Positions 30,349 to 48,194 of a stretch of 64,000 bases of DNA are shown here, one piece after another. This stretch comes from a virus, in the IMG/VR virus record IMGVR_UViG_3300032116_000004, positions 124,001 to 188,000 of that record; one strand, given 5' to 3'. A model generated the notes under the pieces. It searched no databases. It had not been told where the DNA came from and was given only the letters and a program-made list of their open reading frames with translations. The position numbers were made by a program, and so were the translations under genes. Numbering within the stretch: position 1 is the first letter of the stretch; each line of letters opens with the position of its first letter.

Positions 30349-30356
30349 TATAAATA
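30349..30356 (+). promoter_or_regulatory. Consensus T4 late promoter TATAAATA
   Basis: Exact TATAAATA followed by CTGG and the ATG at 30362. This is the best late promoter in the window. With the T4 spacing, transcription would begin at or next to the start codon, so the mRNA would be nearly leaderless or use a second start further upstream. Confidence 0.75.
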
Positions 30357-32889: not shown

Positions 32890-35800
32890 ATGGACATCAA
32901 TGAATTAGACAGTTACCGCCTGTCGGACGCGGTAAAGTTTCACACTGAATTAAACCCTGCACTCTGGGACGGCGATCGCATGCGTCCCGAAGTGCGTGAG
33001 GCCCTGATCAAAATCGCCGATGATTTCCGCGAATTCCTGGGCATCAGTGATCTCGCAGTGGAAGATATCACTGTGAGTGGATCCAATGCCGCATACACCT
33101 ATACTCCCCATTCCGACATAGATCTGCATCTCTTAGTAGATTTCAGCAAGCTCAATCCCGACCAAGTATATCAAGAGCTGTTCAACGCAAAGAAATATCA
33201 ATACAACGATCAACACGATATAAAAATCAGAGGCTATGACGTCGAGCTCTATGTGCAAGACGCAGGCAAGCCTGTTCGCAGCCTTGGTGAGTATTCCATC
33301 GTGCGTGACGACTGGACTCGTATTCCCGTGCGACGCCAAGGCAATCTCGACGAAAAATCAACCCAAGCAAAATACGAAAAACTCAGAGACCTGATTGAGC
33401 TTGCACTGACCAGCGATGATCTCCAAACAGTCACCAATCTCACTGACGTGATAAAACGATATCGGCAGGCCGGATTGGATGAACATGGCGAGTTCGGACC
33501 TGAGAATCTGGCCTACAAGATCCTGCGCACACAGGGCTTGGTCAAGCGATTGTTTGATCATCGTGCCAGCCTAGAAGATTCAAAACTGAGCCTGGCTGAG
33601 CGCCGAAAGAAAAAGAAAAAATCCAAAAAGAAATTCCGTTACGGTTCTTTTGGTGGATACTATTATCCAGGCTATGGTTATTATGGTCAGACCGGCGACG
33701 CCGAAGCCGCAGACGGTGGTGGTGATGGGGGCGGAGAAAGTGTGCGCGAAGACACAGAGATCAAAGTCCAAGCCAAGAGCATACCCATAGACAAAGTGGT
33801 GCGACGCTTCGTGCATTTTGCCGCGCACTATCTCAAACTAGATCAACTGCCTCGCATCATCTTGCAAGGTGAAAAATTTACCAAGCACATCCATTCAATG
33901 GGCCATTATGTAGATGACAAGAAAATGATCGAGGTGGCCACGCACGGTCGCCACATCATGGACATCCTGCGCACCGTGGCACATGAACTCACACATTACA
34001 AACAGCATGAACGCTTGGGCCGAGACATGCCTGACACAGCGGGTCGCACTGGCAGTCCCTACGAAAATGAAGCCAATGCCAAGGCCGGCATAATTATGCG
34101 CCATTTCCAAAATCGTTATCCAGAATTCTTTGGCGCAGAAACAGTGGAAGAACAACTCACGGAGTTTTCACCCGCACAGTCTGGTGCTACCGGTGAAGAC
34201 GATGACATCGAAGCACACTATGGTGATCAGACTCCACCAGGACCAGAATTCCCTCCTACCATGCCCGCAGGCACTGTGAGGGTAGATGTGAGCGATGTGT
34301 ATGACTGGTATAAACTGGGACAGCATATCTCCAACATGAAAGGCTTGGGCAAGCATGACTTTGGTGCAGGTCCGCCCAGTTCCATAATCTCGTTTGGCGA
34401 TGAAGAAACTGAACATAAGTTTATCAAAGATCTTGAAGCCACGGGCCTAGATGTCACTGACATCGATCCCAAGGATCCCCGGCAACCCGCTGGCATGCGA
34501 AAAGTCAAGACCGATCCTACCTACAATGTAGACGAGGGTCTAGGAAAAACACTGGCCACTGGTGCCTTGGCAGCCGCTGCCGCACTGGGACAGCCAGCAC
34601 AGGCACAGGATGTGGGGCGCACGGCCTATCAGATAGGCAAGCAGATATATCAACCCTCGGGCATATTCACCCGTGCAGGTGCTGAAGAAGAACTCAAGGG
34701 CATAGCCCGAGACATGGCACGTGGCAGCAGAGAAATACGTGTGGGTGGCAAGTTGATCTATGGTGGCCCTAGACCGCAAGGTGAGCGTGTTGCGTCAAAC
34801 GCCGCGGCTGCATCAGCAGAAGAAGCCTATCGACAGGCCCTGGAAAATGCCATCAACCGCGCACAACAACAGCATGGTCCTATCACACTGGGCCCCGGCG
34901 GTTGGAAAGTTGTGGATTATGAAGCCGACCAGATGGGCAACACATTCCGTGCCATGGTGGCCATAGAAGGTCCTGCACCGCGCAGAGAATCCATACAGAC
35001 GCCTGTGAGTCGCAGCCAAAAGGATCGCGAAGATTACTACAAGTTTGTCATGGGCAAGGCCACGACAGGTCGTCCTTTGACACGCTCGGAACAAGAATTC
35101 ATCAAGACCTATCGTCTACAACAGAAAATACAAGGTAAAGTGGCCGAAGATGCCGCAGGATACATCCCCACCAAGAAGCAGGCCCGAGATCCACGTTTCA
35201 AAACAGCACTCACAGTGGACATCCGACCTGGACAGGTAGGCAAGGAAGCCAACAAGTTGGGATTGCAGACCGACAGCCAAGGACGTCCTGCACTGTTGAT
35301 CAAGAACTTGGCCAATGCCTTGAAGGAATACAAAGAGACTGGAGTGTTTGAAGCAGTCAATCCCGTGACTCCTGCCGTGCCAGACCCACGACAAAAAATA
35401 GATCCATATCAAGGGCAGGCCCAGAAACGACAAAGACCACAAGACCGACCAAAGAAAAAAACACCATCGAGCACTGGCAATCCAAGATTCGTCAATATCG
35501 AAGTCAAAGAAGACGAAGATCTCATGGAAGTCAAGATGTCGCCCGGGGCCTTGGAAGCCTGGGCACGATCACCTGAAGCCGAAGGTATACGTGCTGGCTT
35601 TGAAGCAGAAATGATCTTCCGTGATACCCGCCGTGACGAAGATGAAGACTACGATCAAGAACCTGACTACGACTACGATGAGCGGCCCGATGACATCGAC
35701 CATGTCATAGACTTCTTCTCCAATGATGACTATGGCTATGGTTTGAGTCGCCAAGGCGCCAGGAATCTACGAGAAAGCCTGTGGGAAGCCTATACGGAAT

Positions 35801-37989
35801 GGGTGGATGAACAGATCAGCGAGAGTTGGGACGAGAATGCCGAAGATCAAGTGCGTGACTACATGGAGACCAACGTCTGGGACGATGACTCAGAACGCGA
35901 AAGCCGTATCCAAGACAAGGTCGAGGAAATGTTTGGTGACGAGGCAGTGCCCGCTATAATGAAAGCCGGCGACAGCGCACCAAGATTCACCCGGAGTTCA
36001 GATCAAGATGAATATGCACAATCCAACGAATTATACCAAAAATTCAAGCAAGCATCCGATGCGGCCTACGAAGCATTCGAAGAAGAAATAACCAATGAGT
36101 TTGAAAGCCAAGGCGAATATTACGATGCGGCTCGCGAATATTATTGGGACATGACGCGAGAAGGCGGCGAGTTTGACGAGCGCGACTTCCTCCGTGACCG
36201 CTATGGTTACATGACTGACATCGCCAACGAAGAAAGCCTTGACTGGCCCTACTGGAGCGGCGGTTCCTCTGGCACTGGCAGCCGTGAGTGGAGCGATATT
36301 GGTGACAGTTTACAGCGTGCCATTGACATGCCAGTGAGAGTGAGTTCAGGCTATCACTCAACCACACGCCGGCCCGGTCTATGGATCATCGAACCCGACG
36401 GCAGCCTAGATCCCGATGATCGTGATGATGAAATGGGCCTGGAGATCGTGTCTCCGCCCTTGCCCTTGCCAGAAACCCTGGAAAAATTAAAACAGGTCAT
36501 TGAGTGGGGTAACTCAGAAGCCGATGCCTACACCAACTCGTCCACCGGCTTGCACATGGGCATCTCTATACCCTATGTGGGCGGTGACGTAGACTATGTC
36601 AAATTGGTGCTGTTCATGGGCGACGAATATGTGTTAGACAAGTTTGGTCGTGCTTCCAACACCTATGCGGCATCGGCCATGGAAAAACTACGCAACAGCA
36701 TGCGAGTGGCACGCCGCCGTGGCACCTTGACTGAAGCCCGATTTGATCCCATGGGTGCGCTAGAACTGGTGCAGAAAAATCTCATTGAACTGGCTGCTCG
36801 TTATGTGCAGAACGGTGTGGGAGACAGCAAGTATACTTCCGCACACATCCAGGACGGCTACATCGAGTTCCGTAGCCCTGGTGGTGATTATTTGAGCATG
36901 GAGAGTCGCGGTGAATATGATGACATCCGCAATACCATGTTGCGTTTTGCTCGGGCCATGCAGATCGCAGGCAGCCCCAGCCTGGAACGTCGAGAGTATG
37001 CCAAGAAACTCTATAAACTGATCTCACCTGGTGCACAGGATGACGGTCTCAAGTTATTTTCTCAATTTGCCGCTGGCACCATAACTCCAGAAGAACTCAA
37101 GAAACAGTGGGCCAATGCTGTGCTCCAGAAAGAGATACCCACCACTGGTCAAGAAGAGTGGGAAGTGTATGATCAGCGCAAGTCTGGTCCGGATGGAGTG
37201 ATCGACTCTTTCTATGCTGATGAATATGACACTGCCTATATGAAAGCCCAGGACAAGTATGGCAACACACCCGAATGGCGCAATTTGGACATCCGTAAGA
37301 AACAACCCTGGTATGATGTCAAGGATTCCTACGGTGACATCATACTCACTGTGAGAGCCAGAGATTTTGACAGCGCCAAACAAAAGGTCCAGGCAGAGTA
37401 TGGGGATCGACTCTCCGACGATTGGGAGATATATCGCAGGCCCGATGACACTCCTGAGCCAGAAAAGAAACTGAGTCCACGTGCTCAAGTGGCCAAACGC
37501 CTCAAAGAACCCAAGGTCACACCGGCAGTGGCCGCAGACAATGAGCGAGATCGTGAACAGATACAGGCCCGCATAGGTGAGCCTCAACCCGCAGGCGCAG
37601 TATCAGACGCCGGACACTATCGTGTGATGTGGGATGAGCGCAGGAATGGAACAGTAACCAGTGATTCTTTGAACATTGATGCTGCCAGTGCCGAAGCAGC
37701 CAGACAGAATGTGCTAGATGCGTTGCAAATGCAAGGTCGAGATGTCATACAGATATCTGCACACCCCCAACAGCCACCAGCCTGGCGGCGCAATCGAGAA
37801 CCTGTTGCCACATCAACACAGGGCGAATTCTCAGGACAGTGGCAAGTTCGTAATGCCAATACCGGAGAAGTGGTTTACACATTCAGTGGCATAGGCAACA
37901 GTCAAGGCGATGCCAATCGTGTGGCACAACAATGGGTCCAACGCACTAGATTTGATGATCCTGTAGAAGTCGTTCCAGAGTTGAGATAA
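32890..37989 (+). CDS. Giant multidomain virion protein: nucleotidyltransferase, metallopeptidase, amidoligase
   Basis: 1699 residues. (1) Residues ~1-220: Pol-beta-type nucleotidyltransferase with GS (64-65) and DID (76-78). (2) A Lys-run and Tyr/Gly linker near 238-275. (3) Residues ~300-420: zinc metallopeptidase with HELTH (365-369) and YENEAN (391-396) as third ligand region. (4) A hydrophobic Ala-rich segment ending AQAQ (551-575). (5) Residues ~885-1290: amidoligase-like, GFEAEMIF (903-910), WIIEPDGS (1165-1172), TGLHMG (1219-1224). (6) Residues ~1390-1699: four small alpha-beta repeats. No homologous architecture is known to me. Probably packaged and possibly proteolytically matured. 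Confidence 0.7.
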   Translation: MDINELDSYRLSDAVKFHTELNPALWDGDRMRPEVREALIKIADDFREFLGISDLAVEDITVSGSNAAYTYTPHSDIDLHLLVDFSKLNPDQVYQELFNAKKYQYNDQHDIKIRGYDVELYVQDAGKPVRSLGEYSIVRDDWTRIPVRRQGNLDEKSTQAKYEKLRDLIELALTSDDLQTVTNLTDVIKRYRQAGLDEHGEFGPENLAYKILRTQGLVKRLFDHRASLEDSKLSLAERRKKKKKSKKKFRYGSFGGYYYPGYGYYGQTGDAEAADGGGDGGGESVREDTEIKVQAKSIPIDKVVRRFVHFAAHYLKLDQLPRIILQGEKFTKHIHSMGHYVDDKKMIEVATHGRHIMDILRTVAHELTHYKQHERLGRDMPDTAGRTGSPYENEANAKAGIIMRHFQNRYPEFFGAETVEEQLTEFSPAQSGATGEDDDIEAHYGDQTPPGPEFPPTMPAGTVRVDVSDVYDWYKLGQHISNMKGLGKHDFGAGPPSSIISFGDEETEHKFIKDLEATGLDVTDIDPKDPRQPAGMRKVKTDPTYNVDEGLGKTLATGALAAAAALGQPAQAQDVGRTAYQIGKQIYQPSGIFTRAGAEEELKGIARDMARGSREIRVGGKLIYGGPRPQGERVASNAAAASAEEAYRQALENAINRAQQQHGPITLGPGGWKVVDYEADQMGNTFRAMVAIEGPAPRRESIQTPVSRSQKDREDYYKFVMGKATTGRPLTRSEQEFIKTYRLQQKIQGKVAEDAAGYIPTKKQARDPRFKTALTVDIRPGQVGKEANKLGLQTDSQGRPALLIKNLANALKEYKETGVFEAVNPVTPAVPDPRQKIDPYQGQAQKRQRPQDRPKKKTPSSTGNPRFVNIEVKEDEDLMEVKMSPGALEAWARSPEAEGIRAGFEAEMIFRDTRRDEDEDYDQEPDYDYDERPDDIDHVIDFFSNDDYGYGLSRQGARNLRESLWEAYTEWVDEQISESWDENAEDQVRDYMETNVWDDDSERESRIQDKVEEMFGDEAVPAIMKAGDSAPRFTRSSDQDEYAQSNELYQKFKQASDAAYEAFEEEITNEFESQGEYYDAAREYYWDMTREGGEFDERDFLRDRYGYMTDIANEESLDWPYWSGGSSGTGSREWSDIGDSLQRAIDMPVRVSSGYHSTTRRPGLWIIEPDGSLDPDDRDDEMGLEIVSPPLPLPETLEKLKQVIEWGNSEADAYTNSSTGLHMGISIPYVGGDVDYVKLVLFMGDEYVLDKFGRASNTYAASAMEKLRNSMRVARRRGTLTEARFDPMGALELVQKNLIELAARYVQNGVGDSKYTSAHIQDGYIEFRSPGGDYLSMESRGEYDDIRNTMLRFARAMQIAGSPSLERREYAKKLYKLISPGAQDDGLKLFSQFAAGTITPEELKKQWANAVLQKEIPTTGQEEWEVYDQRKSGPDGVIDSFYADEYDTAYMKAQDKYGNTPEWRNLDIRKKQPWYDVKDSYGDIILTVRARDFDSAKQKVQAEYGDRLSDDWEIYRRPDDTPEPEKKLSPRAQVAKRLKEPKVTPAVAADNERDREQIQARIGEPQPAGAVSDAGHYRVMWDERRNGTVTSDSLNIDAASAEAARQNVLDALQMQGRDVIQISAHPQQPPAWRRNREPVATSTQGEFSGQWQVRNANTGEVVYTFSGIGNSQGDANRVAQQWVQRTRFDDPVEVVPELR

Positions 37990-38573
37990 TGCGATCTCAG
38001 GAATTTATCTCAGAAGTAAACTTTCCCGATGAGTTATCAGTGAGCGACCGCATACAAAACTATTTTTTTGATCGCGGCTATCAGTTGGCCGGCGAAGGAC
38101 GCGATCAGATAGCCTTGTTGAGTCCCAGAAACACCATACTCAAAGTCTTGGGCATAGGTGAAGATGAGCGCGAACAGATAGTAAAAAACTACGTGAAATT
38201 TTTCGTCAACAATCAGAACGATCCTTATATTCCCAGGATTTACAACGTGGGTGATTTTGAAGTAGATGGAGAAACATATTTTGTGTATGAGATGGAATAT
38301 CTAGACTATGTGGCCAACGAAGAAGCCACGCTGGACTATCTAGAAAATCTCATGTCAGCAGTGGCACGCGGACGTGATCGTGTGCAGGAGTTCATGAAGA
38401 ACAATCCTGCTCCTAAAGAACTGGATCGTGATGACATCGTGGGTTTAGTAAATACTACGCTGAAATTAGAACAAGCCTTGGGCGGCCAGGCACCATTGGA
38501 TCTCAGCCAGATAGAGAACCTTCGCCGCCGCAGTGATGGACATCTAGTGATAATGGACCCCTACAGCCTATGA
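37989..38573 (+). CDS. Kinase-like fold protein with capsid-targeting-like N-terminus
   Basis: 194 residues. N-terminus MRSQEFISE resembles the T4 internal protein targeting sequence (MKTYQEFIAE). The rest has protein-kinase-like features: NTILKVLG (Lys strand), YIPRIYNVGDFEVDGETYFVYEMEYL (hinge), and DLSQIENLRRRSDGHLVIMDP, which aligns with the catalytic loop D..N and the DFG-like Asp of aminoglycoside-kinase-type enzymes. The catalytic His-Asp pair is not conventional, so activity is uncertain. Starts in the stop of the giant gene (TAATG). Confidence 0.6.
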   Translation: MRSQEFISEVNFPDELSVSDRIQNYFFDRGYQLAGEGRDQIALLSPRNTILKVLGIGEDEREQIVKNYVKFFVNNQNDPYIPRIYNVGDFEVDGETYFVYEMEYLDYVANEEATLDYLENLMSAVARGRDRVQEFMKNNPAPKELDRDDIVGLVNTTLKLEQALGGQAPLDLSQIENLRRRSDGHLVIMDPYSL

Positions 38574-38968
38574 GAGCACAAGAATTATTAGTCGAAATCA
38601 CTCGCAGAGACTTCTTGCGTGGTGCAGGTGCCGTGGCTGGCTCTGCGGCATTGGGATCGGCACAGGCTCAATCCGATCGGAACATCACCAAGATTATCAA
38701 CTCGGCTGCCATGTTGTGGGTGATATGTAAAAAACACTATCCCAACAACCCCAACACCCGAGAACTAGAAGAAACAGTCAAACGGCTTTGGAAAAGTAAA
38801 AGCGACAATGCTGTGGCATTTAATGAAGAATACACAGCAATGAAAGAAAGATTGGCAGATTGGGAAGCCCGAGATCCTGCCGGCTATGCCAACTTTGTCA
38901 ACCGATATATGATGAACTTTGCCAAGATTAAAGCCAACTTGGAAACATTACCAGAGATGATGATATGA
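38570..38968 (+). CDS. Capsid-targeting plus Tat-signal protein
   Basis: 132 residues. MRAQELLVE is followed at once by ITRRDFLRGAGAVAGSAALG and SAQAQ, a complete twin-arginine signal (R-R-D-F-L) with an AQA cleavage site near residue 34. The mature part (about 98 residues) is helical, with WVICKKHYP and WKSKSDNAVAFNEEYTAM. Cleavage by the prohead protease after LVE would expose the Tat signal at the new N-terminus, so the protein could be injected and then exported by host TatABC. Function of the mature part unknown. Confidence 0.65.
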   Translation: MRAQELLVEITRRDFLRGAGAVAGSAALGSAQAQSDRNITKIINSAAMLWVICKKHYPNNPNTRELEETVKRLWKSKSDNAVAFNEEYTAMKERLADWEARDPAGYANFVNRYMMNFAKIKANLETLPEMMI

Positions 38969-40809
38969 GAGCACAAGAATTCGCTAATTCCAAACTAGTC
39001 ATCTTTGACATCGACGATACCCTGGTCAACACAGACACCAAGGTCAATGTGGTGCGAGATGGCCGGATCGTGAAGCAACTCAACAGTCACGATTTCACGC
39101 ACTATCACTTACAGCCCGGTGAAGAGTTTGACTTTGGTGCTTTCCGTGATGCCCGCGAATTCTACACACAGGCCCGGCCCATACCCGGCATGATCCGCCA
39201 ACTCAAACAAGACATCGCCACGGGCAACAAAGTGATCATGCTTACTGCCCGCTCGGACTTCAATGACCGAGAAGTTTTCCTGGACACATTCCGCCAGTAT
39301 GGCATTGACATGTCAAAAGTGCATGTGTATCGTGCTGGTAACTTGAACATCAAAGCCGCCACAGAAGAAAAGAAAAAGATCATACTACAACATCTCTTGG
39401 GCAAAGAACACTACGACAAGATCATCATGTATGATGATTCTGTGCCCAATTTAAATGCTTTTCTTAGCCTCAAACAAGATTATCCATGGTCTAAGTTCTA
39501 TGCCTGGCACGTGGATCCATCAGGAAAGGCAGACGAGTATCATAGGACTGATATCCGTGTCACAGAAGTCAGTGCGGATCGCTTGCAACAGTATCTAAAT
39601 CGCGCTGGACAACAGGTTGATCGCAGACAGGAAAGAATGGCCCAGGCCCGTGAGCGACTCAACAAGAGTTATGAAATATACCATGCAGACCGTCCTGCTG
39701 GCTCCAGCCAGATTGTAGATCGTTTTGAATCTGACACCCCTGCGGAAGCCCAACGTTATTATGAAAAGTTTATTCAGAACTACGAAAGTGATCGAGACTT
39801 TGATTTACAACTGCGTCGAAGCACAGGCATCGTGGAAGATTCATTCCGAGGCATCGATATCTCCATGGAAAAGGAAGATGATGAAATCATGGTCCAGGCG
39901 TCGGCGGGTGGCAAGCAGTTAGGGTCAGTGTTGTTTGTGGAATACGATGGCTATCTCATGCCACAGGATCTTGAAGTAGATGAACGATTCCGTGGGCAAG
40001 GTATCGCCCAGGCCATGTATGACTATGTGAAAAGCCTGGGTTATCGCATACGCAGGAGTGGCCAGCAGACCGACGCAGGTTCTGGATTCTGGAGAAAACA
40101 TCGTCCAGAACAGAATGTCTGGGAACAAAGTGTGGCGAAAGGCGATAAAATGAGCCTCATTAATCTAGATCAATCCTTGGCCGACACACCATCGGTATGG
40201 AAAAAATTCATAAGTTTGTTGCCACCACAATTGGCCCGAGAGTTTGTGGATGAGCGTCCAAGACCCGATCAAGACGATATAGACTTTCTCACTCCTTTGC
40301 GTCTGGTCAGTCCGCAGCCTGTATCAGTGCGTGTGGCCGACTTATTGCGTCATCCAGAGAATCAAGGAACCATTGGTAGATCGCCCGACGATGTGGTAAC
40401 AGCAGTAAACCAACGATGGGGTCTCAAGATCCCGTCAGGTAAGAAATATGATCCCAATCCCGCACGATATCGTGCCTATGCCCAGATGGCACCCGGCACA
40501 GCCAGTCCTTCAGTCATGGCCGACGGGGTGATCCTGTTTGGAGCAGGCAGATTCGTGGCCGCGGCTCTGCGTGGTGATGAAACCATGCGTGTGTGGAGCA
40601 TGACAAGAAAGCAAGGCGTGAAGGAAGTAGAGGAAAACTTTGCTGATGGTCGAGTAAAGGGCAAGAGCCGCCCGGGTCGTGTGAAACGTGCGGGTGCTAG
40701 TTGTAGTGGATCAGTCACAGATCTGCGTGCCCGTGCCAAGAAGTATGGTGGAGAACGGGGCAAAATGTATCATTGGTGCGCCAACATGAAGTCAGGTCGG
40801 AAGAAATAA
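38965..40809 (+). CDS. HAD phosphatase plus GNAT acetyltransferase fusion, Cys-basic tail
   Basis: 614 residues. MRAQEF start, then HAD motif I LVIFDIDDTLVNTD (Asp15, Asp17), VIMLTARSDF, and IIMYDDSVPNL. Residues ~295-375 form a GNAT domain (LEVDERFRGQGIAQAMYDYVKSLG, with the RGQGIA acetyl-CoA loop). Residues ~400-560 contain VILFGAGRFVAAALRGDETMRVW, which resembles ParB/sulfiredoxin-type domains. The C-terminus, GASCSGSVTDLRARAKKY and YHWCANMKSGRKK, is a basic two-Cys module seen in several marine phages. Likely a packaged multifunctional protein. Confidence 0.7.
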   Translation: MRAQEFANSKLVIFDIDDTLVNTDTKVNVVRDGRIVKQLNSHDFTHYHLQPGEEFDFGAFRDAREFYTQARPIPGMIRQLKQDIATGNKVIMLTARSDFNDREVFLDTFRQYGIDMSKVHVYRAGNLNIKAATEEKKKIILQHLLGKEHYDKIIMYDDSVPNLNAFLSLKQDYPWSKFYAWHVDPSGKADEYHRTDIRVTEVSADRLQQYLNRAGQQVDRRQERMAQARERLNKSYEIYHADRPAGSSQIVDRFESDTPAEAQRYYEKFIQNYESDRDFDLQLRRSTGIVEDSFRGIDISMEKEDDEIMVQASAGGKQLGSVLFVEYDGYLMPQDLEVDERFRGQGIAQAMYDYVKSLGYRIRRSGQQTDAGSGFWRKHRPEQNVWEQSVAKGDKMSLINLDQSLADTPSVWKKFISLLPPQLAREFVDERPRPDQDDIDFLTPLRLVSPQPVSVRVADLLRHPENQGTIGRSPDDVVTAVNQRWGLKIPSGKKYDPNPARYRAYAQMAPGTASPSVMADGVILFGAGRFVAAALRGDETMRVWSMTRKQGVKEVEENFADGRVKGKSRPGRVKRAGASCSGSVTDLRARAKKYGGERGKMYHWCANMKSGRKK

Positions 40810-40817
40810 GTAATATC

Positions 40818-41000
40818 ATGCGAGCAAGAGAACTCACAGGACACAAGTGGATCACCACTATAACCATAAGCAATCCTGACTATACCGGCCGGATTGATGT
40901 GTCAGTGTATGCCCACAATCAAGCACAGGCCCGACAACTGCTCAAAGCGCAGTATCGCATCCAGGATCATCACATCGGATCCATCAGGAAGGCGCCATGA
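40818..41000 (+). CDS. Small MRARE-type protein, one alpha-beta module
   Basis: 60 residues from ATG 40818. After MRARELTGHKW it has VSVYAHNQAQARQLLKAQY, which resembles the repeated C-terminal modules of the 1699-residue protein (VRARDFDSAKQKVQAEYG). Possibly a single free copy of that module. Its N-terminus lacks the Glu cleavage site of the other MRAxE proteins. Function unknown. Confidence 0.55.
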   Translation: MRARELTGHKWITTITISNPDYTGRIDVSVYAHNQAQARQLLKAQYRIQDHHIGSIRKAP

Positions 41001-41314
41001 GAGTCGCAGAATTCATCGCAGAAGATCTGTCAGCGGCTGGCTTCCGTATCCATGTTAGTCCACACCTGGATAATCGTGCAGAAAATCGCGGCATATCCAT
41101 GGCCACCATCTTGGGCATACTCAACAGATTGGATCGGGTGCGCAGACACATCCGTGGATTTGAGCCCAACTCACAGTTCAATGTCTATGACAGCCAACAC
41201 AACATACATCTTGGCATGATGCGATCAGGATTCGATCCAGATAAACTGTTGTTGAACACAGTGTATCACAACGAAAACTACCACGGGCGCAATCCCGTCA
41301 TAAAGGTTCGATAA
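40997..41314 (+). CDS. MRVAEFIAE-type protein
   Basis: 105 residues. MRVAEFIAE is the closest match in the window to the T4 internal-protein signal (QEFIAE). The remainder, HVSPHLDNRAENRGISMATIL and VYDSQHNIHLGMMRSGF, resembles small toxin-like or nuclease-like proteins (His-rich, beta) but no family is certain. Starts by ATGA overlap. Confidence 0.55.
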   Translation: MRVAEFIAEDLSAAGFRIHVSPHLDNRAENRGISMATILGILNRLDRVRRHIRGFEPNSQFNVYDSQHNIHLGMMRSGFDPDKLLLNTVYHNENYHGRNPVIKVR

Positions 41315-41901
41315 TGAGAGCACAGGAGTTCCAGGAAGTGGCACTGCTGACCCGGGTCAAAGGCAAGGGCGAGGAGCCCAGCAATCTGCCCAAGTTTGGA
41401 CGGCCCATACTGCCCAAAGAAGAGATCAAATACCTTGGGAAAAAAGTCGGCAACATGGGCCGCTATGAGATCTGGCGAGACTATGTGGGTAGCCAGGTCA
41501 GTTACATCCTGGTAGATCCCCAAAGCCGCAGAGCCATAATCCATGCCTTTGGCAGCAGATATCAGAGAAATCCCAACTCATTCATAGTGGCAGGCCTGTA
41601 TGCCGCACCCGGCAATCCTGTGCGTGCCAGCCAGTTCTATCATGCCTTGATCACGGAATTAGGACTGGATCTCATTTCTGATATCAAGCAGAGTCCCGGA
41701 GGCTACAAAGTGTGGCGTGAATTACAGCAAAGATTTCGTGACGTGAATGTATATGGCTATGATACCAAGCGCAACGAACTGCTGAACGTCACTGCACGTG
41801 ATGAAGAAATGACACATGTGCCCGCTGAAATCGTGCGCAAGGGCGGGCCCGATGTCAAAGACGTGGCCCGCAACATCAGGCTAGTGGCCACAGCAAAGTG
41901 A
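41314..41901 (+). CDS. MRAQEF-type protein of unknown function
   Basis: 195 residues. MRAQEFQEV start, then a beta-rich centre (KVGNMGRYEIWRDYVGSQVSYILVDPQSRRAI), PVRASQFYHALITELGLDLISD and SPGGYKVWRELQQRFRDV. The latter resembles phage proteins with small GNAT-like folds but no acetyl-CoA loop is seen. Continuous TAATG/ATGA coupling with its neighbours supports a single late operon. Confidence 0.55.
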   Translation: MRAQEFQEVALLTRVKGKGEEPSNLPKFGRPILPKEEIKYLGKKVGNMGRYEIWRDYVGSQVSYILVDPQSRRAIIHAFGSRYQRNPNSFIVAGLYAAPGNPVRASQFYHALITELGLDLISDIKQSPGGYKVWRELQQRFRDVNVYGYDTKRNELLNVTARDEEMTHVPAEIVRKGGPDVKDVARNIRLVATAK

Positions 41902-41924
41902 TCGCCAGCAGGCGCACACGCCGG

Positions 41925-41930
41925 TAAATA
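41925..41930 (+). promoter_or_regulatory. Late promoter motif before 41935
   Basis: CCGGTAAATATCGC in the 33-base gap, ending 4 bases before the ATG at 41935. Late core TAAATA; the spacing to the start codon is short. Confidence 0.4.
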
Positions 41931-41934
41931 TCGC

Positions 41935-42225
41935 ATGAAATCAACATTCGTAAAATTAAACGTAGATCTACACTGCGATTGGAAAAAGACTCCGCCGCCC
42001 TATAGACTCTATGTCAACGATGAACTGTTCACTGAACGCACCTACATCTGGGGTGGCACACAGTATCTCCAAGAAATCATCAGCCTCAGCGCACCGCCTG
42101 GACGCTACAGCCTACGTATCGACAATCTGGGCGATCCTGACTGCAAATTCAAACTGCGCAATCTCTCAGTAGAAACAGGATCAGCCACGGTGCTGGATTC
42201 TAAAACCGTGGAGATCACCCAATGA
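41935..42225 (+). CDS. Small beta-sandwich virion protein
   Basis: 96 residues: VKLNVDLHCDWKKTPPPYRLYVNDELFTERTYIWGG, then PPGRYSLRIDNLGDPDCKFKLRNLSVETG. This is a short carbohydrate-module-like beta-sandwich, similar in style to the protein at 29911. It has no MRAxE start and may be a capsid or tail decoration. Its stop overlaps the next start. Confidence 0.55.
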   Translation: MKSTFVKLNVDLHCDWKKTPPPYRLYVNDELFTERTYIWGGTQYLQEIISLSAPPGRYSLRIDNLGDPDCKFKLRNLSVETGSATVLDSKTVEITQ

Positions 42226-42404
42226 GAGCCCGAGAATTCGTCACAGAAACCACGGTCAGCGGTGCCATAGCCACGGTTGCACAGCCCATGATGGCCGTGC
42301 TCGCAAGAGAACCTGCACAAGCACCCGCTGATAAATATAAAACTACTTCTAGGAAGCCGGCACCAGATGTTAACCGACGATTTAAAAACTCTTTTAGCAA
42401 GTAA
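42222..42404 (+). CDS. Small MRAREFVTE-type protein
   Basis: 60 residues: MRAREFVTE targeting-like start, then an Ala/Val-rich segment (TTVSGAIATVAQPMMAVLA) and a basic Lys/Arg/Pro tail. After cleavage at VTE only ~51 residues would remain, like small T4 internal peptides. Its 3' end overlaps the Dps-like gene by 38 bases and contains a late motif. Confidence 0.5.
   Translation: MRAREFVTETTVSGAIATVAQPMMAVLAREPAQAPADKYKTTSRKPAPDVNRRFKNSFSK
42332..42337 (+). promoter_or_regulatory. Late promoter motif for the Dps-like gene
   Basis: TGATAAATATAAAAC, 30 bases before the ATG at 42367, inside the preceding small gene. Late core TAAATA at a reasonable spacing. Confidence 0.55.
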
Positions 42405-42807
42405 CTTTGCATATTATCTCAAGGCACAGATGTTCCATTGGAACGTGGAAGGCCCTGATTTCGGGCAACTGCACGAATTTTTCGGCGAAGTCTACGCTGA
42501 TGCCTACGGCGCTGTGGACCAGATAGCCGAATACATCCGCACCCTGGATGACTACGCTCCCGGAAGCCTAGAGCGTTTTTCAGAACTCAGCGAGATCCCT
42601 GGACAGACCAAGATTCCCCGAGCCCGGCTCATGCTGGAAGAATTGCTACAAGATACCGAAACCATGAAAGCCATGGTCATGCGTGTGTTTGAATCTGCAC
42701 AGGCCGAAGGTCGCGAAGACATCGCTAACTTCATGGCCGAACGCCAAAACAGTCATGGCAAGTATGCCTGGCAGACACGCTCATTCCTCAAGGATCAACG
42801 AGCATGA
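42367..42807 (+). CDS. dps: Dps-like ferritin
   Basis: 146 residues of the Dps family. The inter-subunit ferroxidase residues are all visible: His24 (FHWNV), His36 (QLHE), Asp51 and Glu55 (VDQIAE), with the same spacing (12, 15, 4) as E. coli Dps His51, His63, Asp78 and Glu82. It oxidises iron with H2O2, protecting DNA, and could protect phage DNA or be packaged. No targeting N-terminus, and it lacks the long DNA-binding tail. Late motif at 42332. Confidence 0.85.
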   Translation: MLTDDLKTLLASNFAYYLKAQMFHWNVEGPDFGQLHEFFGEVYADAYGAVDQIAEYIRTLDDYAPGSLERFSELSEIPGQTKIPRARLMLEELLQDTETMKAMVMRVFESAQAEGREDIANFMAERQNSHGKYAWQTRSFLKDQRA

Positions 42808-43739
42808 GCAATGACATAGCCCGCATACTGACCAAGTTTGATCAACTCAACGAAGGGTTGAACCAACAACAGACTGCCGTGAAGCAGATGCCTGCACTGT
42901 TTAAAATGAAATCACAGGGTCCTGTGTTGGGCGGAGATCCCAACCGCCCTGCGCCCAGCAAAGGTTACTATTTTGGTGGTGAGGGCGAGGAACCCACTGT
43001 GAATCGCGGTGGTTACAATAAACTACGAGATCGCACAGATTATCTTGACAAGCGTGATATCTTGTTCCGCCAGCTCACTCCTGGCATAGATCCACAAACC
43101 AGAGAAGCCATCAAAGATCGATTGGCCCAATTAGAAAAAGCTGCCGAGATGTCTGGGCTGACAGAAAACACCGAAGACAATCCCATGAGAGATGCAGTGC
43201 TTGGGCGCATCCGTCGTGGCAGATTGGATCTCATAGAAAAATATGGTCTGGACCATGTGCTGTCCGCTGTGGATGATGTCACAGACGGTGATGATGATTG
43301 GTACGAAATTGGATCCAGTGATGTCAGCGCCTATATCAAGCGTGTGGAAGATCTCTTGCGTGATCACTATGGTAGCCGTGACGAAGTAGTTGAAAGCGCC
43401 ACTACCGAAGACGTGATCTCCACTGTTAAGAAAAAACTGGGCGACTATCTACAAGACATAGCCACGCAGATCAAGACAGATCCTGATCTCAAAGACAAAA
43501 TGCCCCAGGACATGGATCGGATCTCTCCTGTGGTCAAGACCATCACCACAGACGATGGCAAAGAAATCAAGATACACGGCAACGAAGATGACGGATTCCG
43601 CATCACTATAAAGAACAAGGCCTTGTCATCCGAATTTGACAATCTTGACGAAGCTGTGATGGCCTGCGAGATGTATTGTGCTCGCCGACGCAACATGCAA
43701 GAACAAACGTCAAACAACGACTATCTGGAAGAACGATAA
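42804..43739 (+). CDS. Virion-type protein of unknown function
   Basis: 311 residues. MSNDIARILTKFDQLNEGL opens, a Pro/Gly region with PNRPAPSKGYYFGGEG follows, and the centre (MRDAVLGRIRRGRLDLIEKYGLDHVLSAVDDVTDGDDDWYEIGSSDVS) is conserved-looking; the C-terminus resembles a small helical domain. Similar proteins with this GRLDLIEKYGxDxVxxAVDDV block occur in T4-like marine phages. Function unknown. Coupled to the Dps-like gene by ATGA. Confidence 0.6.
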   Translation: MSNDIARILTKFDQLNEGLNQQQTAVKQMPALFKMKSQGPVLGGDPNRPAPSKGYYFGGEGEEPTVNRGGYNKLRDRTDYLDKRDILFRQLTPGIDPQTREAIKDRLAQLEKAAEMSGLTENTEDNPMRDAVLGRIRRGRLDLIEKYGLDHVLSAVDDVTDGDDDWYEIGSSDVSAYIKRVEDLLRDHYGSRDEVVESATTEDVISTVKKKLGDYLQDIATQIKTDPDLKDKMPQDMDRISPVVKTITTDDGKEIKIHGNEDDGFRITIKNKALSSEFDNLDEAVMACEMYCARRRNMQEQTSNNDYLEER

Positions 43740-46399
43740 TGAATCTGTTTAATCTAATTGAAAATACCACAGGCGGCTACGACAATCTCCGCGCACTGTT
43801 ACAGGCCGTGAGCACCCGCTCGCCAGCCGATCTCAACATAGGTGGTGAACCCATCACCCTGGACTACATGGAAGCTAACTTCCTCAACGGTATCTATCGA
43901 GCATATTTGAAAGCCGGACGCCAAGAAGAATTCATCCAGGACCTGGGCGATGCACGGCGCTTTGACATGCACATGAAGAAACTGCGCGATCTCATCGCTA
44001 AACAGAAATCCTTCCGTGGATCAGTTCCGGGTCAACGTGGTGTCACAGGCGATGTTCCTGCTGGTGTGATGGAAGGTCTGGAAGCCTTGGAAGAGATAGC
44101 CATGCAGGATCCCAACAATCCCACAGATCAAAATGCCGGCAAATTGAACTGGACTCGCATGATCCAGGACTACATGGGCAACAAACCCTACACTGAATTT
44201 GAATTTGGCACGGATCGTCCGCTCACTCTGTATCGCACACAGATCTATGCCATACTCAAAGCATTTGGCAACATGAAACCACAGCAGAAACTCAACATCA
44301 TCCTCAACACCTTTGGCAACAAAGTGGCTACCGTGGAATACCTTGACAAACTGCGTGCCAAGGGCATGATGCCCAAAAAAGTGCCTGCCTATGTGGCGCC
44401 TGGCACAGAGGCTCCTGCACCGGGACAGATGAGCCTTCCGGGCATAGACATGCCTCGCATCAAAGAAGCTCAAAAAAAAAGTCCGCAAGAATTAGCTAGA
44501 GACACGGCTGTTTCGGCCAAGGTCCAACGTGCGTTCCAACTGGCCAGGGCTCGTCAACCTGCCGCTGCCTCTGACATCGAAGCCTTTGTCAAAGATGAAA
44601 TAGAACGTGGCGAAGAACTAGCACAACAGGTCGGTCAGTTACAGCAAGACAATGAACAACAGAGCCAGCAGATAGCACAACTGACCAAGGCCGTGAGCCA
44701 GCAAGCCAAGGCCGAACCTGAACCAAAGCCACCTGCACCATCAGCACCTGCCGCACGGGCACCCACGGCACCTGCCAAACCAGAAAAAGAACCCACTGCC
44801 AAAGCAGAGCCCGAGGCCCTGCCCAAGGACAAAGAAGAACCCAAGACCGAACCCAAGGCCGAACCTGCACCGCAGACACAACCGGCTCCAGCCAAGGCTC
44901 GCAAGCCCAGGGCTAAACCTCGTGCCAAACCACAAAAGGCCCCCGGGGAATTGCCGCCCGTGGATACCACCATCCAGATGCCACCACAGCAGATACCCGA
45001 TCAGCGACCTTCAGCGCAGATATTGCAGTTTCCTGGCGGCAAGAAAGATGAAGTAGGCGCTGCCATGCAAGGCCTGGATCTTGGTGATTTGCCACGTGCC
45101 GCGGGACAAAACGAAAGCGTGAGAGTCACTGTGAGAGGCAATCCGTTGTTTGAAGGCAAGGATGGCACTGTGAAACAACGCATCGCCGATGACTTCTTCC
45201 TGGTAGATGTAGATGGATTTGGATCACATGCTTTCCATGTCAGCAAATTGGTGTTTGAGATGCAAACCCGACTGGATCGCTTCAATATTGACAGACCCAT
45301 GTTGCCATCCGGCGTGGCCAAGGTCCAATACGCCCGTGACAACAACATGTATGATGATGCCCGCATACAAGAAGCCTTGCCTGACAAGGCCATGGCTGTG
45401 TTGAAAAATCTACAGCAACAGCAACAACAACCAGAACCTGCAATTGATCTCAATACACCTGCTGGTCCACGACGTGGTCGTCCTACCAATGCCCAACGAG
45501 CACAGCGCCACGAAGAGTTCTTGACTCTCCGACGTCGCATAGCATTGTTGGACGAGTTGATCCAGATGAAAGAACAGATTGATCGCTTGTTCCTCAAGGC
45601 ACAGAATGTGCGTGGCGGTATCTATCCTGGCTTGCAAGCAGACATTGAGATGGAAGAACTGTATCCTGTGCCAGAAACAGATCGCCAATTCCAAGATCTC
45701 CGAGACAAATACACCAAAGACTTAACCGCACTGCAAAAGTTCTTGGCCATGAAGAAGGCAGTGTATCGTGAAGACGAAGATTCGATGTTGGGCGAAAGCA
45801 CTGCCTTGGTGCGCTTGAAACAAGCACGTCAGGCACTGAGTCAACAAGGTGTGGCGGAAGGCACCGACGACGTCAAAAAGCGAATGTCCAAGTTGGAAGC
45901 ACTGGCCTTGGCTGCAAATCGTGCCGGTGATGATGCAAAATGCAAAATGTATCAGCAAAAGATTCAATCACTCAAACAAAAATTATCTAGAGATATGTCA
46001 ACAGGTGTAGCGGAAGCAGTTACAGATGTAAAGGCTGGCATGGCTGAAATATATCATCGCCTGGCTCCCAAAATAGAACGCCACCGAGACAGTTTCCTTG
46101 CCGGGCAACTGTATGATGAGTTGGAAAACTATGCTGAACTACACGGTGCCGAAGGCGAGTTCAAAAGGATGATGGCCACGGCCAGGAACAGTGCCCACAT
46201 GGAATATGATACCAACCCGGGTGGTTTCCAAAACTGGTTCTGGTTCTTGCCATTTGAAAAACAGTTGGATGAAAAACAAGATGCTTGTTACCGCAAGGTA
46301 AAAAGTCGTTACAAAGTATGGCCTTCGGCTTATGCATCGGGTGCCTTGGTCCAGTGCCGCAAGAAAGGTGCTGACAACTGGGGCAACAAGAAAAAATGA
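43739..46399 (+). CDS. Large virion protein with Pro/Lys linker and Cys-basic C-terminal module
   Basis: 886 residues from ATG 43739 (TAATG overlap). MNLFNLIEN start, an N-terminal helical domain (about residues 1-270), then a Pro/Ala/Lys/Glu-rich disordered linker near 325-425. A beta module follows (VDVDGFGSHAFHVSKL), then a Gln-rich stretch and coiled coils. The C-terminus (LDEKQDACYRKVKSRYKVWPS, then AYASGALVQCRKKGADNWG) is a basic two-Cys module widespread in marine phages. Likely internal or head-associated. Confidence 0.65.
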   Translation: MNLFNLIENTTGGYDNLRALLQAVSTRSPADLNIGGEPITLDYMEANFLNGIYRAYLKAGRQEEFIQDLGDARRFDMHMKKLRDLIAKQKSFRGSVPGQRGVTGDVPAGVMEGLEALEEIAMQDPNNPTDQNAGKLNWTRMIQDYMGNKPYTEFEFGTDRPLTLYRTQIYAILKAFGNMKPQQKLNIILNTFGNKVATVEYLDKLRAKGMMPKKVPAYVAPGTEAPAPGQMSLPGIDMPRIKEAQKKSPQELARDTAVSAKVQRAFQLARARQPAAASDIEAFVKDEIERGEELAQQVGQLQQDNEQQSQQIAQLTKAVSQQAKAEPEPKPPAPSAPAARAPTAPAKPEKEPTAKAEPEALPKDKEEPKTEPKAEPAPQTQPAPAKARKPRAKPRAKPQKAPGELPPVDTTIQMPPQQIPDQRPSAQILQFPGGKKDEVGAAMQGLDLGDLPRAAGQNESVRVTVRGNPLFEGKDGTVKQRIADDFFLVDVDGFGSHAFHVSKLVFEMQTRLDRFNIDRPMLPSGVAKVQYARDNNMYDDARIQEALPDKAMAVLKNLQQQQQQPEPAIDLNTPAGPRRGRPTNAQRAQRHEEFLTLRRRIALLDELIQMKEQIDRLFLKAQNVRGGIYPGLQADIEMEELYPVPETDRQFQDLRDKYTKDLTALQKFLAMKKAVYREDEDSMLGESTALVRLKQARQALSQQGVAEGTDDVKKRMSKLEALALAANRAGDDAKCKMYQQKIQSLKQKLSRDMSTGVAEAVTDVKAGMAEIYHRLAPKIERHRDSFLAGQLYDELENYAELHGAEGEFKRMMATARNSAHMEYDTNPGGFQNWFWFLPFEKQLDEKQDACYRKVKSRYKVWPSAYASGALVQCRKKGADNWGNKKK

Positions 46400-46929
46400 G
46401 ATATCGAGAGATCCTTGAAGCATGCTGGACTGGTTATAGAAAAGCCGGTATGAAGCGCAAGGGTGATCGCTGGGTTCCCAACTGTGTGCCTGTGAGCGAA
46501 CAGCACATGGAAGAAAATCTCCGAGACTGGTTCAAAGAGAAGTGGGTGCGATTTGGGCCCGACGGTAAGATCCGTGGTGACTGCGCCAGAGGTTCCGACT
46601 CAGAAGGCAAGCCAAAGTGCCTGCCACAGTCAAAAGCACACAGCCTAGGCAAAAAAGGTCGTGCGTCGGCAGCAGCCAAGAAGCGTAGAGAAGATCCCAA
46701 TCCAGAACGCAGAGGTGCTGCCAAGAATGTGTCCACAAAGGTTCGCGAGGATGCAGTGCAAGATCTAGTGAAAGATCTAAAAAATCCACACAGTTATGAT
46801 GCCATTGATCACATGATGCAGACCATTGCTAAAAAATCTGGAATCACTGCAAAAGAACTGCATGATCGTTTCGTGAAAAAACATGACATAACTCCAGACG
46901 AATACATCAAACGCAAAGGCAACAAATGA
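46396..46929 (+). CDS. Basic Cys-containing MRYREILEA-type protein
   Basis: 177 residues. MRYREILEACW start, then GYRKAGMKRKGDRWVPNCVPVSE and WFKEKWVRFGPDGKIRGDC, GKPKCLPQSKAHSLGKKGR, a basic Cys-pair module. The C-terminal KKSGITAKELHDRFVKKHDITPDEYIK is a small helical domain also shared among marine phages. Three different shared modules are strung together, as in neighbouring genes. Probably DNA-binding inside the capsid (inference). Confidence 0.6.
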   Translation: MRYREILEACWTGYRKAGMKRKGDRWVPNCVPVSEQHMEENLRDWFKEKWVRFGPDGKIRGDCARGSDSEGKPKCLPQSKAHSLGKKGRASAAAKKRREDPNPERRGAAKNVSTKVREDAVQDLVKDLKNPHSYDAIDHMMQTIAKKSGITAKELHDRFVKKHDITPDEYIKRKGNK

Positions 46930-47333
46930 GAAATCTAATCAACCGCATGGAAGCCATAGAACAAGGTTGTCCCCCTGCAACACAAAACATTGACCTCAAC
47001 CTCAAGAACAGGAAGAAAGCCATAGATGAATATGACTATGGTCCCATGGATCCCAACGCTCCCAACGAAGAATATTGGGAAAGGATAGCCGCAGAGTGGA
47101 ACATGGACGACGTCGATCAAGCCAAGTCGGCACGCTGTGGCAACTGCGCGGCCTTTGACATATCAGATGACATGCAAGATTGCATAGCCAAAGGCATCGG
47201 TGCAGAACCTGGGTCGGACCCTATGAGCACCATAGATGCAGGCACCTTGGGTTATTGCAAATTCCTCAAATTCAAATGTGCTGCCAAACGCACCTGCACC
47301 GCTTGGGTGGAAGGTGGTCCCATAACAAAATGA
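46926..47333 (+). CDS. HiPIP-like Cys-rich protein
   Basis: 135 residues. KAIDEYDYGPMDPNAPNEEYW then four to five Cys in ARCGNCAAFDISDDMQDC, GTLGYCKFLKFKCAAK and TCTAWVEGGP. The spacing (CxxC near the front, then GYC and KC) recalls high-potential iron-sulfur proteins; cluster binding is a guess from the pattern. MRNLINRMEAIE start is a weaker form of the shared N-terminus. Coupled on both sides by overlaps. Confidence 0.55.
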   Translation: MRNLINRMEAIEQGCPPATQNIDLNLKNRKKAIDEYDYGPMDPNAPNEEYWERIAAEWNMDDVDQAKSARCGNCAAFDISDDMQDCIAKGIGAEPGSDPMSTIDAGTLGYCKFLKFKCAAKRTCTAWVEGGPITK

Positions 47334-47677
47334 GAGTGACTGACATCGTGCGCGAGACCAAAGATATTGCCAGTTTCCTAAGTGGTCAATCTCCCATGGT
47401 AACGCTGCCACCTGGTAGTGCTAGAGCCAAGATTTTCACACCACAGGATCGCCAGGCCATAGAACGTTTTGTTCCTGCGGTGCGCGACATGACCGATCAT
47501 GACGCACTGGAATCGGCCAAAGAGTTTTTAGAAACTTTCTTGAATCGCATCAAAACCGGCGAACAGTTGGACAGGACTGACCTTCGCATAGTCGGCGGAC
47601 TCTATGACATCATCCGCAAACAAACCGATCGTTATGACACGTTTATGAGGAAATACAATCTAGATGAAAGCCAGTGA
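47330..47677 (+). CDS. MRVTDIVRE-type helical protein
   Basis: 115 residues from ATG 47330. MRVTDIVRE targeting-like start, then a mostly helical body (DRQAIERFVPAVRDMTDHDALESAKEFLETFLNRIKTGEQ). No recognised domain. Overlaps both neighbours by ATGA-type joints, within the MRAxE series. Confidence 0.55.
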   Translation: MRVTDIVRETKDIASFLSGQSPMVTLPPGSARAKIFTPQDRQAIERFVPAVRDMTDHDALESAKEFLETFLNRIKTGEQLDRTDLRIVGGLYDIIRKQTDRYDTFMRKYNLDESQ

Positions 47678-48194
47678 ATTCGTTTCTGAGAAATGGAGCC
47701 GCAAATACAAACGCTCTATCAACTGTGCCCGGCCTCGTGGTTTCAGCCAGAAAGCGCACTGTGCTGGTCGTCGAAAGACCGACGAAGCCATAGGTGCCAA
47801 TTACAACACCGCTCGTAGCATCGCTCAGGACATCCATGATTATGTTCTGAACATAGGACAGACCATTAGTCTGCAAGGGTCTCGAGGTCGTCCATATGTA
47901 GAGCAACTGCAATCAGAAATGTTGCCCATGATCGAGGAACTGCGTGCGCTTGGCTACGACTATCACCCCGAAGCCCGAGACTACATGGTGCCATTGACCA
48001 TAGACAATGCTCTCGATCCCAGACTGACCGAAGAACAACTGGATGAGATACTCATGTTTAAAGGATCACCTTGCACCGTGGACTGCTCGGGTCACAGGGC
48101 AGGATACGAGTGGTGGTTCCGCAAACGCAAGACTCCCAACTCATGGAGCCCCAGTTTCAACAAGGGCGCTGCCTTGGCAGCCGCAGGTAAGTAA
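47664..48194 (+). CDS. MKASEFVSE-type protein with two Cys modules
   Basis: 176 residues. MKASEFVSE targeting-like start, then a basic Cys-pair module (KWSRKYKRSINCARPRGF, SQKAHCAGRRK), a helical centre (residues ~45-120) and a C-terminal CTVDCSGHRAGYEWWFRKRK and SWSPSFNKGAALAAAGK module. Both Cys modules recur in proteins of marine T4-like phages. Last member of the MRAxE series. Function unknown; possibly packaged. Confidence 0.6.
   Translation: MKASEFVSEKWSRKYKRSINCARPRGFSQKAHCAGRRKTDEAIGANYNTARSIAQDIHDYVLNIGQTISLQGSRGRPYVEQLQSEMLPMIEELRALGYDYHPEARDYMVPLTIDNALDPRLTEEQLDEILMFKGSPCTVDCSGHRAGYEWWFRKRKTPNSWSPSFNKGAALAAAGK

Follow-up and report, generated by a model that had tools for sequence, protein, structure and literature searches.

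The 64,000-nucleotide stretch analyzed here (the window) comprises bases 124001-188000 of the 315,778-base virus record IMGVR_UViG_3300032116_000004, and its interval 37989-48194 carries an array of genes in which unrelated proteins start with a common nine-residue leader of the type M-R-A-x-E-F-[IV]-x-E. By phmmer comparison with T4, homologues of terminase gp17, sheath gp18, portal gp20, prohead protease gp21 (genome 312482-313105), and major capsid protein gp23 (genome 314242-315438) were identified. The nearest relatives of the DNA polymerase are those of Sinorhizobium phage Phosso (48%), Vibrio phage 2.275 and Agrobacterium phage Atu_ph07 (43%), and the 121Q group (42%). Judged by such homologies, the phage is a giant within the T4 superfamily and has a T4-type head-maturation protease. 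The genes with full, incomplete, or variant leaders are listed below; they were called from the sequence, the first also from a structure model, and genome positions lie outside the window.

37989..38573, + strand: leader MRSQEFISE (37989-38015) and a kinase-like protein
38570..38968, + strand: leader MRAQELLVE (38570-38596), then directly a twin-arginine (Tat) signal (ITRRDFLRGAGAV...) and a helical unknown protein
38965..40809, + strand: MRAQEF start (MRAQEFANS) without the cut-site Glu; HAD, GNAT, and a basic C-terminal module
40818..41000, + strand: small protein MRARELTGH..., incomplete leader, no site
40997..41314, + strand: leader MRVAEFIAE (40997-41023) and an unknown cargo
41314..41901, + strand: MRAQEFQEV start, site incomplete or shifted, and an unknown cargo
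42222..42404, + strand: leader MRAREFVTE (42222-42248) and a small protein whose predicted mature start is capsid-protein-like
46396..46929, + strand: eight-residue leader variant MRYREILE (MRYREILEA start) and two modules
47330..47677, + strand: leader MRVTDIVRE (47330-47356) and an unknown cargo; internal ATG of a longer TTG-start open reading frame (ORF)
47664..48194, + strand: leader MKASEFVSE (47664-47690) and a Cys/basic module that is present in cyanophages too
Genome 10875-11246: full leader MRAREFIVE, GTG start
Genome 11243-11647: full leader MRAREFVAE
Genome 7680: T4-style 10-mer MKTFAEYLTE
Genome 9936: T4-style 10-mer MKTFKDYLAE

The full start M[RK]xx[ED][FIL][IVL]xE was found in six genes of the interval, or 6 of ~16, compared with 2 of ~433 genes elsewhere in the genome (Fisher test, 2e-8); the two outside genes (genome 10875 and 11243) are neighbors, flanked by tail and terminase genes. 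Among 2065 "internal" Met positions, a single one fitted the tag, and it proved to be the real start of gene 47330. The N-termini quoted in the original prediction, which was made from the letters alone, were all found in place. Its near-identical motif ending in Glu holds for the six full members, the looser start that it gave for 46396 is an eight-residue form, and its remark that other genes start with MRAQEF is correct for 38965 and 41314. In a Foldseek search, the structure model of the 37989 product matched APH and protein kinases (E value, 4e-5) with TM scores below 0.5, and because of these scores it is called kinase-like only.

The codons of the tag differ at synonymous positions; because codon choice varies in this way, conservation acts at the peptide level. 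The motif could instead be a by-product of shared DNA, arising from recent duplication, a translation-start element, or ATGA stop-start overlaps that favor MR or MK, and several genes do overlap by ATGA and have AGA codons in common. Synonymous variation, the unrelated cargoes, and the chance-level frequency of the pattern with E and F permuted already contradict this explanation, as does the recurrence of Glu and a hydrophobic residue at internal junctions distant from start codons, and we regard it as very improbable.

A degenerate DNA pattern for MRAxEF[IV]xE was run over 2.9 million viral contigs, with an E/F-swapped version of the pattern as the control. It matched at least 120 contig stretches, compared with 9 for the control; among the 151 matches listed, 150 stood at the start of ORFs of ≥40 amino acids, and 140 had no earlier in-frame ATG. 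The L-numbered loci mentioned below are viral stretches or records drawn from the tag-pattern matches listed, and counts on them apply among those. The enrichment at N-termini in related genomes that had been anticipated was observed, 48 of 1456 non-bait genes of the matched loci starting with such a tag versus 12 of 6945 internal Met positions. Without the 9-mer tag, the cargo formed at least 38 groups with no detectable mutual similarity. The motif thus heads unrelated cargo, as had been claimed, and it does so in modular fashion in many other phages.

A T4-type pattern, MKT[FY]xE[FY][hydrophobic]xE, gave at least 120 matches, compared with 7 for a permuted control, and its cargo formed at least 54 groups. 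The HAD domain of window gene 38965 sits behind a T4-type tag in L225 (41% identity) and L278 (35%), from which we conclude that tags and cargo are exchanged. The leader was absent from RaK2, Atu_ph07, phiKZ, and SPN3US. The leader matches in CBB were antisense to a helicase gene or contained a stop codon and were rejected, apart from one further candidate match. T4 gene 61.1 (AF158101, 18966-19130), annotated as a hypothetical protein beside the primase gene, starts with MKTFKEFIKE, a full T4-type leader.

In T4, the prohead protease cuts directly behind L/I-x-E, and ten N-terminal residues of internal protein IPIII are enough for targeting; the determinants of the capsid-targeting sequence (CTS) are a propeptide of 10 to 19 residues, targeting residues 4 (aromatic) and 7, and an [I/L]-x-E site (PMC9026906). 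Like the CTS of IPI-IPIII, the array leader is a short, putative N-terminal propeptide with an [IL]xE-type end, common to unrelated proteins, in a genome that encodes a homologous protease and a homologous capsid protein with L-x-E at its junction. The processing site ([IVL]xE) is present in the six interval genes and the two outside, but not in 38965 or 40818, so that the proposed protease maturation agrees with the sites and with the gp21 gene of the genome, except for these two genes. The array leader differs from the CTS in having nine residues instead of ten and a free residue 4, whereas the canonical form is carried elsewhere in this genome by genes 7680 and 9936; the two types of tag thus coexist in this phage. 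The likeness to the T4 CTS suggested in the original prediction accordingly extends to the [ILV]xE end, but not to the length or to an aromatic residue 4, and since strict membership fails on this one feature, we file the leader as a CTS variant. Further differences from T4 are the more numerous and larger cargoes, the predicted internal polyprotein sites, and the export-like signals behind sites.

A gp21 homologue was present in all 11 tagged records of ≥177 kb among the matches listed, as well as in one 121-kb record. The gp23 proteins of this phage and of 12 relatives have L-x-E in the stretch matching the T4 processing region, examples being YLKE/NASAG, LLAE/SSAG, and YLME/SPTAG (here and below, a slash marks the predicted cut). 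In L161 (G001), two ORFs that meet at one base make up the gene for the major capsid protein; a frameshift, a sequencing error, and an intron are candidate causes.

Sites of the same kind were also found inside larger proteins by a test that is independent of start codons, in which domains lying directly behind a tag in one phage were sought inside larger ORFs of other phages. At 51 internal junctions, Glu stood just before the domain in 75% (background, 6.6%), and P3 was I, L, V, or M in 71%. An [ILVMF]xE site occurred at 33 of the 51, compared with 0.7 expected, a large effect among junctions that are mutually related. For instance, KEVEE/NFADGRVKGKSRPG inside window protein 38965 corresponds to MRAAEFVTE/NFADGKVKGKSRPG in L113, and HMEE/NLRDWFKEKWVRFG inside 46396 corresponds to MRAEEFITE/DLRKWFKEKWVRFG in L058. 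The kinase-like domain of the 37989 type lies internally in L058, behind QLNE. The probable polyproteins and predicted sites of the window are as follows.

32890..37989, + strand: 1699-amino-acid multidomain ORF, a probable polyprotein with an NTase-like N-domain, HExxH (HELTHYKQHE), and an amidoligase-like domain
33592..33600, + strand: predicted gp21 site LAE/RRKKK in the 1699-amino-acid protein; the junction is homologous to the leader/cargo junction of L114
34528..34608, + strand: predicted site VDE, then Sec-signal-like segment GLGKTLATGALAAAAALGQPAQAQ in the 1699-amino-acid protein (begins at residue 550)
40627..40635, + strand: predicted gp21 site VEE/NFADG in the 38965 protein; L113 has leader/NFADG at the same boundary
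43733..46399, + strand: 888-amino-acid probable polyprotein with candidate sites QGVAE and TGVAE; the C-terminal module is homologous to S-CREM2 ORF160
46507-46515, + strand: predicted internal site MEE/NLRDW in the 46396 protein (junction test)
46741-46749, + strand: predicted internal site VRE/DAVQD in the 46396 protein (junction test)

The NTase-like match of the 1699-amino-acid ORF, which also contains the amidoligase-like domain, is below the cutoff; the N-domain has homologues in Maribacter, Caulobacter, cyano-, and Lak phages. These junctions suggest, as their natural reading, that multidomain cargo is cut apart by the gp21 prohead protease. Alternatively, they could be old fusions that retain the last residues of a lost leader, a reading weakened by the variation of the residues before the internal site.

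For cyanophage S-CREM2, a virion proteome with coordinates has been published (PMC10665884, Table 3). According to that table, the strict tag M[KR]x[FYL]xxF[ILV]xE starts 4 of 218 S-CREM2 ORFs, and all four products, a SAM hydrolase, an APH-like kinase, a cytidylyltransferase, and a small protein, are virion proteins (P = 0.003). With a version of the tag built from the four published T4 determinants, 4 of 5 were in the virion (P = 0.012). No virion protein of the table was matched by regular expressions in the style of the 9-mer, because S-CREM2 uses the T4-type 10-mer. Window proteins 32890, 43733, and 46396 are homologous to S-CREM2 ORFs 156 and 160, both listed as virion proteins: the N-domain of 32890 corresponds to ORF156, and the C-terminal module of 43733 and 46396 correspond to ORF160. 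The S-CREM2 matches of the polymerase and clamp loader of the window are non-virion proteins in the same source. In S-SCSM1, one of two genes with a T4-type tag, encoding an NMNAT, is labeled as a virion protein, and the other is without that label.

We infer, with a probability of about 0.8, that M-R-A-x-E-F-[IV]-x-E serves as a short propeptide for capsid targeting that is cut by gp21 and whose cargo is packed and injected. Proteins made during head assembly would dock on the prohead core via the leader, and a gp21-type protease would cut behind the leader Glu. In larger cargo it would cut also at further [ILVM]xE sites between domains, leaving free effector domains in the head that would enter the next cell along with the DNA. 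The tag would be modular, the same cargo domain being able to follow a 9-mer or a T4-type leader or to lie next to a site within a polyprotein. For this phage, docking, packaging, cleavage, and injection are what the sequence comparisons lead us to expect, and they suggest a delivery system far wider than T4's handful of such proteins.

Several points weigh against this reading. The virion data come from phages with T4-type leaders, and the nine-residue form is without the aromatic residue 4 of T4. The S-CREM2 test involves four ORFs, with the strict form of the tag tightened after the virion list was known, and the authors of that proteome allow for carry-over (PMC10665884). The control contigs for gp21, none of which (0 of 6) had a homologue, are few and small.

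The commonest tagged family, to which genome 10875 and 11243 belong, accounts for 97 of the 203 tagged proteins listed; its members are ~125 amino acids long, mostly in tandem, and located in the structural cassette, with a conserved SPxxxFKGY at the C-terminus. It had no match in named phages, and its structure model shows a few helices in an extended chain (pTM, 0.52). Perhaps phages of this group use it as an internal protein. Its location would also suit a leader that serves as a virion-assembly tag for core, shell, or tail building and not for injection, as in the cleaved T4 gp24 or gp67, with cargo that forms scaffold, decoration, or tail-associated parts. Cleaved core proteins are ordinary in T4, and T4 gp24 starts with MAKINELLRES, which is near leader variants such as MKINELLTE. 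Against this, the cargo includes ADP-ribosyltransferases, kinases, GNATs, and wall hydrolases with no obvious structural role, and the S-CREM2 virion members, as tabulated, are enzymes; we consider an assembly tag unlikely.

Pfam matches among 104 tagged proteins listed included GH19 wall hydrolase (8), DUF6321 (6), GNAT, and the Tat signal, as well as the ADP-ribosyltransferases ADPrib_exo_Tox and ART-PolyVal, Kinase-PolyVal, LysM, SLT, ParB_N, and NT5C; no replication protein was found by Pfam among the 104. PADLOC gave a single marginal match, to PglW, in the cargo. Two T4-type-tag cargoes, L303 2104 (+) and L289 6037 (+), have a by-eye likeness to 2H-phosphoesterase and ADP-ribosyltransferase-like folds.

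Export-like segments stand directly behind the tag in some of these proteins. Immediately after the tag, L027 and L067 have a twin-arginine segment with GH19 behind it, L092 has a Sec-like segment and GH19, and window gene 38570 has its Tat signal. About 10 ORFs of relatives contain a W-K-type segment, [LIV]xE/[GDS][WL]K...A-rich...AxA, several of them right before LysM or GH19, and the segment in the 1699-amino-acid protein of the window is similar to these. By an automated criterion based on simple hydrophobicity rules, an export-like segment was present in 7 of 8 GH19 cargoes and in 7 of 96 others (P = 1e-6). The eighth GH19 cargo, L067, has a Tat signal by Pfam, so that all eight have an export-signal-like segment just behind a predicted cut site. 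Internal signal-like segments stood behind a site in 14 of 35 cases, compared with 18% expected (P = 0.002).

Tat or Sec-like signals directly behind the leader in a few proteins would fit a leader that itself directs export or membrane targeting in the producing cell. This we find hardly credible: most cargoes have no such segment, the P1 Glu and hydrophobic P3 match gp21 and the capsid protein junction, and the tagged proteins of the published S-CREM2 table are located in the virion. The capsid-targeting reading allows a tentative extension, to which we give somewhat less than even odds, in which the prohead protease would be a location switch. The export signal would be silent in the producing cell, masked by the leader or an upstream domain, and the protein would be packed; maturation cleavage by gp21 would unmask the Tat- or Sec-like signal, and after injection the enzyme would be sent to the periplasm of the new host. 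The apparent polyprotein dicing and the export-like signals behind predicted cut sites are both beyond the account given in the original prediction.

Three known systems invite comparison. The cyanophage virion enzymes of S-CREM2 and S-SCSM1 (kinase, cytidylyltransferase/NMNAT, and SAM hydrolase) have starts that fit a T4-type leader and were found in purified virions by mass spectrometry; they differ in using the 10-residue form, and the available parts of the source papers propose no packaging signal. The polyvalent proteins of phages and conjugative elements (Iyer et al. 2017, PMC5512222) are likewise multidomain and probably delivered effectors, and ART-PolyVal and Kinase-PolyVal are found among the tagged relatives; the present proteins differ in sharing a cleavable leader and in having gp21-like sites that recur between domains, and most domains are not those described. 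In phiKZ and SPN3US, a gp21-related protease also cleaves head proteins behind Glu, and these proteins are ejected, but the cleavage motif is S/A-x-E, and neither phage has either leader pattern. T4 Alt, itself packaged, is an ADP-ribosyltransferase (PMC5512222), and one review makes the general suggestion that the CTS enables T4-like phages to pack various proteins (PMC9026906). In the open papers listed that use the term CTS, the phages covered are T4, P1, P22, and the phiKZ type, and polyprotein dicing and export-signal unmasking are not described in the papers found. New relative to these are the scale, the leader form of nine residues, the sites inside proteins, and the export-like signals that follow cut sites.

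The small leader protein gene 42222-42404 overlaps the start of a Dps/ferritin-like gene (42367-42807) whose product itself is without a leader, and the pair is found again in relatives, e.g., L031, L068, L113, and L117. A frameshift joining the 42222 leader to the Dps-like protein was rejected: it needs +1, no classical slippery site was seen, and the Dps-like protein is unfused in relatives. Small leader proteins have a predicted mature start, EFIKE/NASVGATSSGSVATVAMPV, that resembles that of the major capsid protein, YLKE/NASAGSTVSGNIATLNRVILPV; such starts are seen in window 42222-42404, L081 11641-11838, and L090 7403-7597, compared with gp23 at genome 314242. Mimicry and common origin are candidate explanations.

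Two features lie upstream of the array.

30349..30356, + strand: candidate T4-type late promoter octamer TATAAATA, the only match in the window, with 0.9 expected by chance
30362..31882, + strand: cytidylyltransferase-like protein (weak phrog_3041 match) with candidate internal site EEQLNE/LDLF

The array may start at 30362, with the cytidylyltransferase-like gene as a possible first member. That the array is one continuous late operon, as had been proposed, is weakly supported by this single octamer. Late promoters were not enriched upstream of leader genes (19 of 191, compared with 149 of 1137 for neighboring genes).

If the capsid-targeting reading is true, a nine-residue string readable in the sequence would predict which of the many unknown genes in large T4-type phages have products that are carried in the head and are the first to reach the host, and lists of "hypothetical proteins" would become testable lists of effectors. 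It would offer a possible explanation for the enzymes repeatedly seen in cyanophage virions, and two mechanisms would be suggested, in that the prohead protease would dice effector polyproteins and maturation cleavage would unmask export signals.

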